NCBI GenBank assembly: GCA_023954855.1
Contig: JAGSGY010000048.1
Coordinates: 1-42,586 of the forward strand
Length of the DNA stretch: 42,586 nt
Direction: 5' to 3'
From: Pseudomonadota bacterium
GTDB taxonomy: Bacteria > Myxococcota_A > UBA796 > GCA-2862545
The position numbers and the translations under genes were made by a program. Under the pieces are notes generated by a model. It searched no databases and was not told the origin of the DNA. It worked only from the letters and a program-made list of their open reading frames with translations. Shown piece after piece: positions 12,058 through 20,166 of this stretch (its first letter is position 1; every line of letters begins with the position of its first letter).

Positions 12058-12087
12058 TTGCGTGAATCGCGGGCCTGAACATATGTT
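12058..12087 (+). promoter_or_regulatory. Predicted dnaE2 promoter (leaderless)
   Basis: TTGCGT (12058-12063), then 18 bases, then TATGTT (12082-12087). The -10 lies inside the palindromic operator, and a start site 6-9 bases downstream would fall at or next to the ATG at 12093, giving a leaderless mRNA. There is no Shine-Dalgarno in the 20 bases before the ATG because that space is the palindrome. Confidence 0.5.
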
Positions 12088-12092
12088 CAGGC
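12073..12092. promoter_or_regulatory. SOS box (LexA operator) of dnaE2
   Basis: A perfect 20-base palindrome, GCCTGAACATATGTTCAGGC, ends one base before the dnaE2 ATG. Its core GAAC-ATAT-GTTC is the GAAC-N4-GTTC form of LexA site known from Gram-positives, and the CTGAAC...GTTCAGG flanks agree closely with the operator reported for Myxococcus xanthus LexA. dnaE2 is a classic SOS gene, so target and site support each other. Binding here would cover the predicted -10 and start site. Confidence 0.8.
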
Positions 12093-15000
12093 ATGGCCTA
12101 CGCTGAACTCTCTGCCCGAACTGCCTTCTCGCTCCTCGAAGGTGCGTCTCTTCCCGAAGAGATGGTCGAGGCTGCAGCGGTTGTCGGGGCGAAGCATCTC
12201 GCGCTCGTCGACCGCGATGCGGTCTATGGTTTGGTGCGGGCCCACCGGGTCGCAAAGCAGCGAGACGTGCACCTGGTCAGCGGTTCGACGATCACGCTGG
12301 TCGCGCATCCGTCGCTGGTGGTGTTGGTTCAGAACCGGCAGGGCTGGGCGAACCTCTGCCGTCTGCTCACCGAGGCGCGATCGACCCTCGAGAAGGGCAG
12401 GGCGCAGCTCGATCTGCCCCGTCTGCTCGAGCGAAACGAGGGGCTGATTGCCGTGCTCCGGCACGGATGGCAGGTCGATGAGGCCCAGCGCTTGGCCGAG
12501 GCCTTCGGTGACCGGCTGGCGGTGGGCTGGTCGCGTCGGCTGTTGCCTTCAGATCGCCTGCGCAAACGACAGACACTGGCCTTGGCCAACGCGATCGGCG
12601 CTCCGGTGGTGGCCACGAACGAGGCGCTGTTCCATGGCGAAGAGCGCAAGCCGCTCGCCGATGCGCTGACCTGCATTCGTCGCCGAACGACGCTGCGTGC
12701 GGCAGGTCGGTGGCTCCATGCGAGTGGGGCGCGTCACTTGCTCGACGAACGCAGCTTCCGCACGCGCTACGCCGAGATCCCAGGAGCTGTCGACGAGGCG
12801 ATTCTGCTCGCTGAGCGGTGCACCTTCTCGCTTGATGAGCTGCGCTACGGCTACCCCCAAGAGGTGGTCCCCGAGGGGTTCACGCCGATCCAATGGCTCG
12901 CCCACCTCGTCGAGGAAGGGCTCACTGAGCGCTACCCAGACAAGATCCCCGCCAAGGTGCGCGCGGCTGTGGAGTACGAGCTTCGCGTGATCGATGAGCT
13001 CGCCTTCCCGGCGTACTTCCTGACGGTCTACGACATTGTTCGCTTCGCGCGTTCGCGAGGCATTCTCTGCCAGGGACGGGGTTCGGCGGCGAACTCGGCG
13101 TGCTGCTATGCACTGGGCATCACCTCGGTCGATCCGGCCCTTCATGAGCTGCTGTTCGAGCGCTTCATCTCTGCCGAGCGAGGCGAGCCGCCCGACATCG
13201 ACGTCGACTTTGAACACGAGCGGCGTGAAGAGGTGATTCAGTACATCTACGAGCGCTATGGCCGCGAGCGTGCTGCCCTAGTCAACGAGGTGATCAGCTA
13301 TCGCCGCCGCTCGGCGATTCGCGACATCGGCAAGGTGATGGGCCTCTCTCTCGATCAAGTCGACCGTCTGGCGAAGTCGACGGACCGCTGGTCGGCGGGC
13401 CACCTGGCTCAGATCGATGATCTGGTGTCCGAGTCGGGCCTCGACCCGAAAGAGGCGGCGGTGCGCAACACACTTCAGATGGCCGATGAGCTGGTGGGCT
13501 TTCCTCGGCATCTGTCGCAGCACGTGGGGGGCTTCACGATCACACAGACGCCGTTGGTGGAGCTTGTTCCCGTCGAGGCGGCCGCCATGGAGGCACGCAC
13601 CGTCATTCAGTGGGACAAGGACGACATCGACATGCTCGGCTTCGTGAAGGTCGATGTGCTGGGCCTTGGCATGCTCACCGCGATCCGAAAGTGCTTTGAG
13701 CTGATTCAGGGGGCCTACGGCCTCAGCTATGACCTAGCGACCGTCCCGAAAGAGGACCCGGCGGTCTACGACATGTTCTGTCGTGCCGACACTGTGGGCG
13801 TGTTCCAGATCGAGAGCCGGGCCCAGATGTCCATGCTTCCGCGACTGCGGCCCCGGTGCTTCTACGACCTCGTGATTGAGGTAGCGCTCGTTCGGCCTGG
13901 CCCGATTCAGGGCGGCATGGTGCACCCATTTCTACGCCGCCGAAATGGCGAGGAGCCGGTCGAGTACCCACACCCCGATGTCGAGTCTATTCTCGCGCGA
14001 ACCATGGGCGTGCCCCTGTTCCAGGAGCAGGTGATGGCGATGGCGATGGCGGTCGGCGGCTTCTCGCCGGGCGAAGCCGACGAGCTGCGTCGCGCCATGG
14101 GGGCCTGGCGTAAGACGGGAGACCTCGGATCCGTAGGCAGACGGCTGGTCGACCGCATGGTCGCTCGCGGGATCGCCCCGGACTACGCCGAGCAGATCTT
14201 CGAGCAGATCAAGGGCTTTGGCGAGTACGGCTTTCCCGAGTCGCACTCGGCGAGCTTTGCGCTGCTCGTGTACGTCTCGGGATGGCTGAAGTGCCACTAC
14301 CCAGAGGCGTTTGCTGCTGGCCTCATCAACAGCCAGCCAATGGGCTTCTACTCCCCGAGAAGTATCGTCGCCGACGCGCAGCGACACGCGGTCGAGGCGC
14401 GACCGGTCTGTGTGGTGGCGAGCCAATGGGACTGCACCCTCGAGGACCGCGGCGAGCAGAAGGCCGCGCTTCGATTGGGTTTGCGCTTGGTTCGAGGCTT
14501 TGGTGACGAGGACGGTGCGGCCGTACTCGCGGCCCGCTCCGATGGAGCTTTTCGCGACCTGGCCGACTTCGCGCGTCGAACCTGCCTGAATCAGGCCAAG
14601 CTCCAGGCCCTCGCCGACGCCGATGCCTTTGCCTCCTTTGGCGTGGATCGACGCCGAGCCGCATGGGTGCTGCAAGGGCTATGGACAGGTGCACCGCTGT
14701 TCGCAGGACTGATGCGACGGGAACCCGAGGCGCCGCTGCCTCCCGAAGGCCGACTCGACGCCATTCGTGCGGACTACCGATCGGTCGGGTTGTCGGTCGA
14801 CAAACACCCCATCGACGTGTTTCGCCCCGAGCTCGAGGCGCGAGGTACCCGGCTAGCGGCCGAGCTGGTCAAGCTCGTCCACGGCGTCCATGTGAAGGTG
14901 GCGGGCCTCGTGGCCAATCGCCAGCGCCCCGGCACAGCCAACGGCGTGGTCTTCATGACCCTTGAAGATGAGACCGGCATGATCAACCTGGTGGTCTGGC

Positions 15001-15164
15001 CAAAGGTCTGGGATCGGTACCGCCGGATTGCGCGAAGGGCGACCGTGATCGGGGTCGATGGCACGCTTCAGCGCGACGGAGATGCCGTCAGCGTGTTGGT
15101 GAAGCACTTCTGGCTTCTGCAAGTTGATCCTGTGGTCTCGGCGCGCTCACGCGATTTCAGATGA
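12093..15164 (+). CDS. dnaE2: Error-prone DNA polymerase DnaE2 (ImuC)
   Basis: A 1023-residue C-family polymerase of the DnaE2 type, used for damage-induced translesion synthesis and mutagenesis. The N-terminal PHP domain is degenerate: the family YAELHCLSNFSFL segment reads YAELSARTAFSLL, so the usual metal-binding His is lost. Palm residues are intact: GRGSAANS (328-335), PDIDVDF (367-373, catalytic D369 and D371) and KVDVLGL (519-525, third Asp D521). A C-terminal OB domain lies near 930-1005, and the protein ends SRDFR, like other DnaE2 proteins. No QADMF-type clamp motif is seen. An SOS operator touches the ATG. The usual partners imuA and imuB are not adjacent and not in the window. Near full length for the family. 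Confidence 0.95.
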   Translation: MAYAELSARTAFSLLEGASLPEEMVEAAAVVGAKHLALVDRDAVYGLVRAHRVAKQRDVHLVSGSTITLVAHPSLVVLVQNRQGWANLCRLLTEARSTLEKGRAQLDLPRLLERNEGLIAVLRHGWQVDEAQRLAEAFGDRLAVGWSRRLLPSDRLRKRQTLALANAIGAPVVATNEALFHGEERKPLADALTCIRRRTTLRAAGRWLHASGARHLLDERSFRTRYAEIPGAVDEAILLAERCTFSLDELRYGYPQEVVPEGFTPIQWLAHLVEEGLTERYPDKIPAKVRAAVEYELRVIDELAFPAYFLTVYDIVRFARSRGILCQGRGSAANSACCYALGITSVDPALHELLFERFISAERGEPPDIDVDFEHERREEVIQYIYERYGRERAALVNEVISYRRRSAIRDIGKVMGLSLDQVDRLAKSTDRWSAGHLAQIDDLVSESGLDPKEAAVRNTLQMADELVGFPRHLSQHVGGFTITQTPLVELVPVEAAAMEARTVIQWDKDDIDMLGFVKVDVLGLGMLTAIRKCFELIQGAYGLSYDLATVPKEDPAVYDMFCRADTVGVFQIESRAQMSMLPRLRPRCFYDLVIEVALVRPGPIQGGMVHPFLRRRNGEEPVEYPHPDVESILARTMGVPLFQEQVMAMAMAVGGFSPGEADELRRAMGAWRKTGDLGSVGRRLVDRMVARGIAPDYAEQIFEQIKGFGEYGFPESHSASFALLVYVSGWLKCHYPEAFAAGLINSQPMGFYSPRSIVADAQRHAVEARPVCVVASQWDCTLEDRGEQKAALRLGLRLVRGFGDEDGAAVLAARSDGAFRDLADFARRTCLNQAKLQALADADAFASFGVDRRRAAWVLQGLWTGAPLFAGLMRREPEAPLPPEGRLDAIRADYRSVGLSVDKHPIDVFRPELEARGTRLAAELVKLVHGVHVKVAGLVANRQRPGTANGVVFMTLEDETGMINLVVWPKVWDRYRRIARRATVIGVDGTLQRDGDAVSVLVKHFWLLQVDPVVSARSRDFR

Positions 15165-17391: not shown

Positions 17392-17408
17392 CGGACAGAA
17401 TATGTCCG
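17392..17408. repeat. Inverted repeat CGGACA-N5-TGTCCG
   Basis: A perfect 6-base inverted repeat with a 5-base spacer, seven bases after the stop of the upstream gene and 66 bases before the clamp-motif gene. It has the size of an operator for a dimeric regulator; there is no T-run, so it is not an intrinsic terminator. Confidence 0.4.
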
Positions 17409-17425: not shown

Positions 17426-17457
17426 TTGCGGGCGGTTCAGGTGTTCAGTATGTTCAG
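17426..17457 (+). promoter_or_regulatory. Predicted promoter with GTTCAG repeats, resembling the dnaE2 promoter
   Basis: TTGCGG (17426-17431), 17 bases, TATGTT (17449-17454). GTTCAG, half of the dnaE2 operator, occurs three times in direct orientation at 17435, 17443 and 17452. The arrangement GGTTGCG ... TATGTTCAG is the same as at dnaE2 (spacing 17 versus 18). The inverted CTGAAC half-site is missing, so LexA control is suggested but not shown. Confidence 0.45.
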
Positions 17458-17473: not shown

Positions 17474-17914
17474 ATGAGCGCACCACGCCTCACCCGATAC
17501 CAAGACCTGAACGACCGCGGTCAGCGTGTACCTGCCATCTGGCAGGGCGCTGCAGACCAGGTGTTCGTGGTCATGTCCCCCGGACGTTTCGCGGGTCAAC
17601 GGTACAATGTCGGTGACGTCCTCATCTGCCGCGGTGACGTGGTCGAGGACGAAGCGATGGTGCTCATGGCCCGGGGACACGGCCGCCCGCGAATGGGATC
17701 ATTGCGGGGTGACGCGCTCTATGGCGAGGTTGGGGAACCTTGCAGCGCGGCTCGCTGGCGTGCCGCGGGACGTATCGTCGCAGTGCTGCGGGGGGAAAGC
17801 AGCAGCCTGTCGGTGGTACGTTCCGCACCCCAGGTCGTGAAGGTGTCGCGCGAGCCGCGTCGTCCTCGTCGTGTCCGTACGCCGCAGCTCTCGTTGTTCT
17901 CGCGGGCGGCGTAG
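17474..17914 (+). CDS. Small LexA/UmuD-fold-like protein with C-terminal clamp-binding motif
   Basis: A 146-residue protein with GGGAG five bases before its ATG. Residues about 29-106 follow the order of the S24 (LexA/UmuD) C-terminal fold: a VFVVMSPGRF strand, GDVLICRGD, AMVLMARG, then GRIVAVLRG near the end like the GVVxxVxR strand of LexA. The catalytic Ser (SGMSM in LexA) and Lys are not seen, so it should be proteolytically inactive if the fold is right. A basic linker (about 126-136) leads to QLSLF (138-142), a close match to the QL(S/D)LF motif that binds the DNA polymerase sliding clamp, four residues from the C-terminus. The promoter resembles that of dnaE2. I infer a damage-response accessory factor; the fold assignment is by eye and tentative, the clamp motif is clear. 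Confidence 0.6.
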   Translation: MSAPRLTRYQDLNDRGQRVPAIWQGAADQVFVVMSPGRFAGQRYNVGDVLICRGDVVEDEAMVLMARGHGRPRMGSLRGDALYGEVGEPCSAARWRAAGRIVAVLRGESSSLSVVRSAPQVVKVSREPRRPRRVRTPQLSLFSRAA

Positions 17915-17935: not shown

Positions 17936-18748
17936 CTACTCGACGAGTACTTCGAGCAGGGCCTCAACGCGCTCGGCTTGCACGGGTAGCTCCAGGTCCG
18001 ACTTCTCGTGAAGCCATGTGCCGACGATCATCGCGTCCACGAATTGTCGCGCTCCGGATGCGAGCGAAGGGGTCATCCCAGATCCGGCCCAGATAGGCGC
18101 CTGCGGAACCACTCGGTGTACGCGCTCGAGTTCTTTGAGGTCGAGTGGCTGGCCGGTGCCCGAGCCGGTCACGATCAGGGCGTCGGCGCCGCCGCGGTTG
18201 AAGGTGTCGCGGGCGACGTCGCGGAGGTTGGGCGAGCCGAGAGGTACCGCGTGCTTTACCAACACGTCCGCGGCGATCTTGATGTCGGCTCCAAGGCGGT
18301 TCCGGTCTAGAAGCAGGTCGCGAGCCTCGCCCTGAATGACCCCTTGGTCGGTGACCATGACGCCCGTGAGAACGTTGACGCGGATGAATGAGGCGTCCGT
18401 GGCGACGGCGATGGCCATTGCTGCTCGCGCATCGTTGCGCAGGACGTTGATGCCGAGGGGGAGGTCCGGCGCCGCTTCGCGAATGGCCATGGCTGCGCGG
18501 GTGAGAGAAGCCACCGTAAAGTGGTCGACCTGACCTGCGGCGAAGGGCGCGTCCCCGATGTTCTCGACAATGATGGCATCGGCACCGCCGGCCGCGATCG
18601 CGCGGGCATCCTCCGCAGCTCGCTTCAACACCGCGGCCATTCCCGGCCCACGCGAGGGCGAGCCCGGCATGGGCAGAAGATGAACCATCCCGATCAGCGC
18701 CGGCCTTTCTGCGTTCTTCTGGGTGAATGGGTTCCTCAGATCAGCCAA
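17936..18748 (-). CDS. BtpA family protein
   Basis: A 270-residue TIM-barrel protein of the BtpA/SgcQ family. Signature stretches are IGMVHLLPMPGSP at the N-terminus, GGADAIIVENIGDAPF, PLGINVLRNDA, FIRVNVLTG and ALIVTGSGTG (phosphate-binding-like loop). BtpA was named for a cyanobacterial protein needed for photosystem I accumulation; in non-photosynthetic bacteria the reaction is unknown, possibly sugar- or nucleotide-related. The start is uncertain: TTG 18748 overlaps the nhaD-type gene by 13 bases and keeps the family's residues before IGMVH; ATG 18688 would cut into the first beta strand. Coupled to the antiporter gene, which is an odd pairing. Convergent with the clamp-motif gene, 21 bases apart. 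Confidence 0.88.
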   Translation of the reverse strand: MADLRNPFTQKNAERPALIGMVHLLPMPGSPSRGPGMAAVLKRAAEDARAIAAGGADAIIVENIGDAPFAAGQVDHFTVASLTRAAMAIREAAPDLPLGINVLRNDARAAMAIAVATDASFIRVNVLTGVMVTDQGVIQGEARDLLLDRNRLGADIKIAADVLVKHAVPLGSPNLRDVARDTFNRGGADALIVTGSGTGQPLDLKELERVHRVVPQAPIWAGSGMTPSLASGARQFVDAMIVGTWLHEKSDLELPVQAERVEALLEVLVE

Positions 18749-20166
18749 ATCACCGTCACCAGAATGAAGGGCGGAATGAGGAAGACAGCGGCGTAACCGG
18801 AGTATCCGAAGAAGCTCGGCATCTTGTAGCCGCTCTGCTCCGCGATCGCGCGCACCATGAAGTTGGGGCCGTTGCCGATGTAGGAGCCCGCTCCGCAGAA
18901 CACGGCGCCAAGCGAGATGGCTTGAAGGACGGGGCTGAACTCGCCCACGGAGAGCGGCGCGAGGTTCTCGGCGGTCATGCACGTGGGATCGGTGCCGCAG
19001 GCCATGGCCGCGAAGGTCACGTAGGTCGGCGCATTGTCGAGGAAGGCGGACAGTCCACCCGTTGCCCAGAAGTATTGCCAGGGCTCGGTCACGCCGAGGG
19101 CATCACCATTGGCTTGAAGTAGGGCAGTCGCCGGAATCATGGCGACGAAGATGCCGACGAAGAGTGCTGCGACCTCGAGGATCGGGTCCCAAGTGAATCC
19201 GTTTCGGGTTCGGATGGACTGCGACGTCAGCACCATCGAGGCCCCGGCGAGGCCGAACATGACGGCTTCGCGTGCGTAGTAGTGACGGAAGTCGACCACT
19301 TCGGGATTAGGGTTGAGGGCCAGCACGGCGACGATCACGCCACCGAGAAGCAGGAAGTTGACCTGGCCTTCGAAGCCGAGGGGCTCGATGATCTGCTCGT
19401 CGGCAATGCGGTGCGCCTTGTCCTCTTTGCGGAACATCATCGAGTCGAGGGCGAAGAACATCACCAGGAGTAGGCCGACGGTCGGGAGCCAGATGTACCA
19501 GAGGTTGTACAAGGTCCAGAAGAAGTCGATTCCACGCAGGTAGCCGAGGAACAGCGGGGGATCGCCGATCGGGGTGAGCGCGCCGCCGATGTTCGACACC
19601 AGGAAGATGAAGAAGATCGGGATGTGCCAGACATGCTCTCGCTGCGAGTTGGTGCGCAGCAATGGGCGGATCAGCAGCATCGATGCGCCGGTCGTGCCGA
19701 TCACATTGGCGAGAACTGCGCCGATGGCCAAAAAGGTCGTGTTGGTGGTCGGGGTGCCTTCGAGATCACCACGCAGCAGGATGCCACCGCTGATCACGTA
19801 GAGGGAGCCGAGGAGTGCGATGAAGCCGAGGTACTCGGCGATCGCGTGCTTCAGACCGTGCGATGCGTCATGACCCAGGCCATGAAAGTCGGTGACCGTG
19901 CAATAGACGAGAAAGGCCGCGACGGGTGCGGCCCAGCCGACTGCCACAAGGAGCTGGTTTCGGTTGTGATGCCACCAGTGGCCGGCCACCATCGGAACGA
20001 GGGCAATCGACAGCAACAGCCCGGCAAAGGGAACGACCGACCACAGCGGCAGGAATTCGCCGAGGGTCATGTGGTGGACTGCTTCGGCCCCATGCCCGCC
20101 GTCCTCGGAGGCCCAGGCCAGGCTTGGAACAAGGAGAAACAGGGACGTAAGCGCGCGAGCAAGCAC
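18736..20166 (-). CDS. nhaD: NhaD-type sodium/proton antiporter
   Basis: A 476-residue inner-membrane transporter of the ion transporter superfamily (NhaD/citrate-transporter fold), expected to exchange Na+ for H+ and control pH and sodium. About a dozen hydrophobic segments are visible, with characteristic re-entrant sequences NVIGTTGASMLL, NIGGALTPIGDPPLFLGY and FLDNAPTYVTF, plus GAVFCGAGSYIGNGPNFMV near the C-terminus. The frame is open far upstream, but GTG 20166 has GGAG at 5 bases and gives a signal-peptide-like N-terminus (LARALTSLFLLVPSLAWAS), as in other NhaD proteins. The BtpA gene overlaps its 3' end. Confidence 0.92.
   Translation of the reverse strand: MLARALTSLFLLVPSLAWASEDGGHGAEAVHHMTLGEFLPLWSVVPFAGLLLSIALVPMVAGHWWHHNRNQLLVAVGWAAPVAAFLVYCTVTDFHGLGHDASHGLKHAIAEYLGFIALLGSLYVISGGILLRGDLEGTPTTNTTFLAIGAVLANVIGTTGASMLLIRPLLRTNSQREHVWHIPIFFIFLVSNIGGALTPIGDPPLFLGYLRGIDFFWTLYNLWYIWLPTVGLLLVMFFALDSMMFRKEDKAHRIADEQIIEPLGFEGQVNFLLLGGVIVAVLALNPNPEVVDFRHYYAREAVMFGLAGASMVLTSQSIRTRNGFTWDPILEVAALFVGIFVAMIPATALLQANGDALGVTEPWQYFWATGGLSAFLDNAPTYVTFAAMACGTDPTCMTAENLAPLSVGEFSPVLQAISLGAVFCGAGSYIGNGPNFMVRAIAEQSGYKMPSFFGYSGYAAVFLIPPFILVTVIWLI

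Follow-up and report, generated by a model that had tools for sequence, protein, structure and literature searches.

The P0001 locus

The window (the whole stretch of DNA that was analysed, 42,586 nucleotides) carries the gene for an error-prone DNA polymerase, dnaE2, and, 2.3 kb from it, a small gene whose product we refer to as P0001. The initial annotation had described a 146-residue protein with QLSLF near its C-terminus, and this is borne out: the reading frame runs from 17474 to 17914, and the motif is followed by the residues SRAA. In what follows, f1 is the window's own family and f2-f6 are sister families. The features of the locus are:

12075-12090, no strand, CTGAACATATGTTCAG palindrome beside the dnaE2 ATG
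12093-15164, + strand, dnaE2, error-prone DNA polymerase of 1023 amino acids (NCBIfam PRK05672, 1395 bits), the presumed partner of P0001
17392-17408, no strand, CGGACA-N5-TGTCCG palindrome upstream of the P0001 gene, the sole copy in the window
17435-17440, 17443-17448 and 17452-17457, + strand, three GTTCAG half-sites, 16-38 bases upstream of the P0001 ATG
17474-17914, + strand, P0001 gene, 146 amino acids, ATG start (ORF reading)
17558-17794, + strand, S24 (LexA/UmuD')-like beta domain, residues 29-107, without the Ser/Lys dyad
17885-17899, + strand, QLSLF, consensus sliding-clamp-binding pentapeptide, residues 138-142
17939-18982, - strand, btpA-family gene, convergent neighbour of the P0001 gene and synteny marker across f1-f5

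P0001 is laid out as an N-terminal segment (residues 1-28), the S24-like beta domain (approximately 29-108), a variable basic linker (approximately 109-137), the clamp motif and a four-residue tail. No Pfam family was found for it at E ≤ 1, scans with Pfam, NCBIfam, PHROGs and PADLOC gave no match, and its profile returned two matches among the sequences of solved structures, both at chance level. A 373-residue protein without a Pfam match is encoded between dnaE2 and the P0001 gene (16263-17384); a diverged copy occupies the same place in genome G068 (35%) and a weak one in G024.

An S24-like fold lacking the protease dyad

The AlphaFold2 model of P0001 (50-sequence alignment) has a mean pLDDT of 84.8, which rises to around 95 over residues 29-105, and a disordered tail (pLDDT 53-66). 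The initial annotation had recognised the strand order of the S24 (LexA/UmuD) domain in the sequence and proposed a fold search against LexA and UmuD; in our structural comparison, all 30 of the best PDB structure matches are C-domains of LexA, UmuD' or the CI/186 repressors (Z 8.1 to 5.3, over alignments of 80-101 residues), headed by 6a2t (Z 8.1) and including UmuD' (1umu, Z 6.8; 1ay9, Z 6.7), and the next fold follows at Z 4.7. Foldseek also places the S24 superfamily on top, yet with an E of only 0.07. The P0001 family aligns co-linearly with the LexA S24 profile of the window's order (hhalign, 20% probability, E 0.0012), and the Pfam PF00717/S24 profile matches none of the 50 family members at E ≤ 1. 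As Z scores below 8 can mean a common arrangement, the claim is carried by the fact that the list is uniform and by the co-linear LexA alignment. With Z scores that are middling, P0001 would belong to the S24 superfamily by fold only.

Within the S24-like domain of the family, W95 is invariant and G68, G70, R94 and G99 are nearly so. The positions of the protease Ser and Lys were placed by gapless register with GD48 and by hhalign. Residue 38, in register with the Ser, is variable across the family (R, E, S, A and others), as is residue 73, in register with the Lys (M, R, L or V), while the LexA of the same order retains both GDSM and TVKR. What is left is an S24-like fold minus the protease; the Ser and Lys whose absence had been read from the single sequence are not conserved in the family. 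Without the dyad, self-cleavage of an N-terminal arm in the manner of UmuD is not expected in P0001.

The C-terminal clamp motif

The pattern Q[LVIM]xL[FWL] is found within the last 30 residues of 34 of the 48 complete homologues, against an expectation of 0.175 (mean; maximum 2) from 2000 tail shuffles, so that the sliding-clamp motif first noticed in one protein can now be regarded as a property of its family. The stricter Q[LVI]xLF is present in 20/48. The motif takes the forms QLSLF, QLALF, QLGLF, QLRLF, QLPLF, QLDLF, QLGLW, QVALW, QVSLW and QLPLL, is followed by 0-10 residues, and is preceded by a linker that is otherwise variable; complete homologues that lack it include L014, L015, L017 and L020. 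P0001 itself has what is expected of a clamp ligand, a flexible tail with a consensus peptide of the QL(S/D)LF type.

Distribution and synteny of the family

By searches with the protein and then with a profile, 52 of the order's 63 genomes have a member of the family; the 314 other genomes of the phylum sample have none. There is one homologue per genome, and one genome has an additional weak match. Weak matches beyond the order, given by the first search with the protein, were gone with the profile and are attributed to chance. A single-protein search of the genome contigs with P0001 matched the sister genome alone; the sister-genus record is labelled Deltaproteobacteria, and the taxonomy places it under Myxococcota.

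Homologues are mostly around 110-190 residues long in f1 and mostly 225-490 residues in f2-f6. At 14 of 17 f1 loci a btpA-family gene stands no more than approximately 105 bases from the homologue, and in most f1 loci it is convergent. Where a btpA-family gene was detected in f2-f5, the distance is at most 90 bases; there the two genes are co-directional, with gaps of 10-90 bases. Since the short and long forms have this neighbour in common, we take them, by synteny, to be orthologues. The btpA-family gene is a constant neighbour of the P0001 family in five bacterial families. The link to DnaE2 that had been proposed is supported within f1, where dnaE2 is 0.9-4.4 kb from the homologue in 10/17 loci; in the f2-f5 loci, the flanks of some of which are short, dnaE2 was not found nearby.

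Long orthologues with a Y-family remnant

The f4 orthologues consist of a P0001-type N-terminal domain, a Y-family remnant and the same C-terminal clamp motif, the Q and L of which are nearly invariant. Pfam IMS matches 12 of the 16 f4 members (best 6.8e-10). The AlphaFold2 model of one long form (L077, pLDDT 88.6) matches Y-family polymerases (Foldseek 6.6e-9, Z 14.6), and its profile aligns with ImuB (96.7%) and DinB (95.7%) of the window's order. The palm/fingers and little finger fold of a Y-family polymerase is present, palm and little finger follow each other without an intervening thumb segment, and no catalytic acidic motif of DxD or SxDE type was found at the aligned positions. UmuD is the partner of a Y-family protein; the f4 forms carry a Y-family remnant in the same chain. 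The long architecture is therefore a dead S24 domain, a dead Y-family module and a clamp motif; take away the Y-family part and the f1 form remains. Judged by the wider spread of the long forms (and not from a tree), this part appears to have been lost in f1 and not gained elsewhere.

Adjoining the f4 fusion gene is a gene for a protein that by eye resembles a PD-(D/E)XK nuclease and has a C-terminal cysteine cluster:

L077 9062-9985, - strand, PD-(D/E)XK-like protein (by eye)
L076 2186-3862, - strand, PD-(D/E)XK-like protein (by eye)
L078 4670-6745, + strand, PD-(D/E)XK-like protein (by eye)

ImuA-ImuB and DnaE2 in the order

The initial annotation had remarked that dnaE2 stood without a visible imuB. 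This is correct for the window contig, where no imuB was found, but not for the genome, which has an intact imuA-imuB pair on another contig (C30; imuA, L065 4707-5318; imuB, L065 5312-6826) and so cannot be said to lack imuB; the imuA matches the ImuA_translesion model at 8.9e-20, below that model's cut-off. One outcome named in advance as telling against the proposal was an imuA-imuB pair elsewhere together with a P0001 gene unlinked in occurrence; the first half is what we find, but the gene is linked. In the sister genome, imuAB, dnaE2 and the P0001 homologue lie within approximately 15 kb (approximately 17 kb with btpA). The window genome also has a DinB-like gene.

None of the 39 ImuB sequences examined from the order has Q[LVIM]x[LM][FW] anywhere, and the canonical clamp site is degenerate throughout (QPGLLD, QPGLVD, QRDLLD, QSGLFD and similar). 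Among 20 outgroup ImuBs from other families of the phylum, 13 have a consensus sequence at the canonical site (QLDLF, QLALF, QLGLF, QIRLF); the other seven fail the pattern, one reading QLDFF and one QAGLF. The DnaE2 of the window genome has no motif of the Q[LVIM]x[LM][FW] type. In the loss of the ImuB motif, the order as a whole counts as one evolutionary event. Several outgroup ImuBs (L208-L210, L214, L219 and L227) are without the consensus motif in genomes that are also without a P0001-family protein, so the motif can weaken where there is no P0001 gene and the exchange is not one-to-one. At the clamp site the ImuBs of the order do retain Q and L (QPGLLD, QRDLLD), and three f4 members read QxGLF; weak clamp binding by these proteins may therefore remain.

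In f4, ImuB (N-terminal) and DnaE2 (C-terminal) form a single reading frame of 1668-1755 amino acids in all five loci examined:

L131 4521-9785, - strand, ImuB-DnaE2 fusion
L132 2573-7636, - strand, ImuB-DnaE2 fusion
L133 6511-11571, + strand, ImuB-DnaE2 fusion
L162 673-5817, - strand, ImuB-DnaE2 fusion
L163 4738-9741, + strand, ImuB-DnaE2 fusion

Our literature search found neither an ImuB-DnaE2 nor a UmuD-UmuC fusion.

Control regions

The CGGACA-N5-TGTCCG palindrome occurs six times in the 6.1 Mb window genome. Two of the six copies are upstream of imuA and of the P0001 gene, and the remaining four lie within or close to genes that have no obvious part in repair. In genome G038 the element again stands upstream of both imuA and the P0001 homologue, which accounts for two of its three copies there. 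The sites noted for the element at imuA and P0001 promoters are 17392-17408 in the window, L065 4619-4635 and L141 4031-4047. In several genomes it lies 42-53 bases upstream of an SOS-box-like element. A literature search on the CGGACA/TGTCCG element returned unrelated papers only.

Exact CTGAAC-N4-GTTCAG is present in two copies in the 6.1 Mb genome, close upstream of the dnaE2 and imuA starts; the P0001 promoter has GTTCAG half-sites and not the full palindrome. The published Myxococcus xanthus SOS box is CTRHAMRYBYGTTCAGS, of which GTTCAG is the 3' half (PMC9705874). With up to two mismatches allowed, 16 of the 37 loci have the pair of elements upstream of imuB; among random windows drawn from these loci the number is 24 of 2000. 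This enrichment, together with the palindrome common to imuA and P0001, supports co-regulation, and on the promoter sequences the P0001 gene is probably co-regulated with imuA; it may also be induced by DNA damage. The genome's own lexA promoter (L181) holds CTGCACACACGTTCAT, which is near the M. xanthus SOS box and is not the perfect palindrome of imuA and dnaE2.

Discussion

The closest comparison is with UmuD' of E. coli Pol V (UmuD'2C-RecA), which, like P0001, is an S24-like beta domain. UmuD' acts as small partner to a Y-family protein, a role that P0001 may share, and UmuD also makes contact with the clamp. In contrast to UmuD', P0001 has no Ser/Lys dyad, carries its clamp motif at the C-terminus and presumably has the ImuB-DnaE2 system as its partner, and its long orthologues hold a dead Y-family part in the same chain. 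The C-terminal domains of LexA and CI repressors are the best structural matches, but P0001 has neither their DNA-binding domain nor their protease dyad. With ImuB, the family shares the consensus clamp pentapeptide, the dead Y-family module (in the long orthologues) and an SOS-type genomic setting. P0001 itself, however, has no Y-family palm or little finger, RecA-NT or ImuB-C, ending after the S24-like domain and tail, and the genome has a separate, real ImuB, which is without the consensus motif. Small subunits known in Y-family and DnaE2 systems include UmuD', YqjX/YolD, ImuB-C and SRAP-like proteins, and ImuB groups vary in their clamp motif, according to the parts consulted of PMC6511836 and PMC12926913. 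YqjX/YolD and standalone ImuB-C are likewise small and rich in beta structure, and their genes accompany those of Y-family polymerases, inactive or active, or of DnaE2; the same parts of the two papers (PMC6511836, PMC12926913) describe for them no S24 fold or terminal clamp motif, and they describe neither an inactive S24 protein that ends in a clamp motif nor an ImuB-DnaE2 fusion.

In mycobacteria, the clamp motif of ImuB anchors the mutasome and is essential, its loss being equal to loss of imuB (PMC10421592). An order whose ImuB has no consensus motif should therefore need another anchor. As ImuB and DnaE2 both lack the motif, and an order-specific protein whose gene is linked to dnaE2 has it, supply in trans is the simplest reading. 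We suggest, giving it an even chance, that P0001 is a UmuD'-like subunit through which ImuA-ImuB-DnaE2 receives its clamp contact in trans. Its dead S24 domain would dock on the mutasome, with ImuB or DnaE2 as the likeliest partner, and the QLSLF at the end of its flexible basic tail would bind the beta sliding clamp in its hydrophobic cleft, thereby giving in trans the contact that ImuB gives in cis elsewhere. When it arose within the order, the family may have joined an S24 domain to a dead Y-family remnant of ImuB/DinB-like type and already ended in this C-terminal motif; f1 would then have lost the Y-family part. The initial annotation had thought of an accessory regulator; in the light of the loss of the ImuB motif and the Y-family fusions, P0001 is probably a relocated clamp anchor instead.

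Four other explanations have to be weighed. P0001 could manage polymerases, as is thought for UmuD, by binding the clamp alone or with DinB or Pol III and competing for the cleft, so as to slow replication or switch polymerases, and would then be no structural part of the DnaE2 complex. A clamp motif joined to a UmuD-like domain would suit such a role, as would the DinB-like gene of the window genome and the failure to find dnaE2 near the gene in f2-f5. We nevertheless consider it unlikely, as the order-wide loss of the ImuB consensus motif, the linkage to dnaE2 in f1 and the promoter element in common with imuA all point to the DnaE2 system. Less likely again is a clamp-bound adaptor for an activity other than translesion synthesis, such as BtpA or the PD-(D/E)XK-like neighbour in f4. 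The btpA gene is adjacent in most clades and, in f2-f5, co-directional at 10-90 bases, but its convergent orientation in most f1 loci means that it is not co-transcribed there with the P0001 gene, and the long forms, with their Y-family remnant, connect the family with translesion synthesis. To our knowledge, BtpA has no link to replication, which also speaks against this role. We regard as very improbable a ligand of the RecA filament or LexA, that is, an S24 decoy that cannot be cleaved, adjusts the SOS response and binds the clamp only secondarily: the absence of a cleavage dyad and the position of the clamp motif as the most constant distal feature weigh against it, even though the nearest folds are the C-domains of CI, UmuD and LexA and the list includes their RecA-filament complexes. 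That P0001 is an unrelated small beta protein whose tail reads QLSLF by chance is hardly credible, for the weak Foldseek E (0.07) and the silence of Pfam are set against a motif in 34/48 homologues where shuffling gives 0.175, a conservation that contradicts chance, and against 30/30 top folds in one superfamily.

Returning to the clamp anchor in trans, we propose more tentatively, at somewhat less than even chances, that the order has a new mutasome architecture. The clamp peptide of the DnaE2 system would have moved from ImuB to a separate, dead UmuD'-like subunit that was born as a fusion of UmuD'-like and Y-polymerase-like parts, with some members also fusing ImuB and DnaE2. If this is true, a mutasome's anchor is movable to a protein that acts in trans, and one family connects Pol V (UmuD'-UmuC) with ImuA-ImuB-DnaE2, the two error-prone systems that are known. 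The natural ImuB-DnaE2 fusions of f4 also offer single-chain material for structural work on the complex. Beyond the five loci listed above, about a dozen further f4 genomes have an IMS match in a frame of 1250-1830 amino acids.
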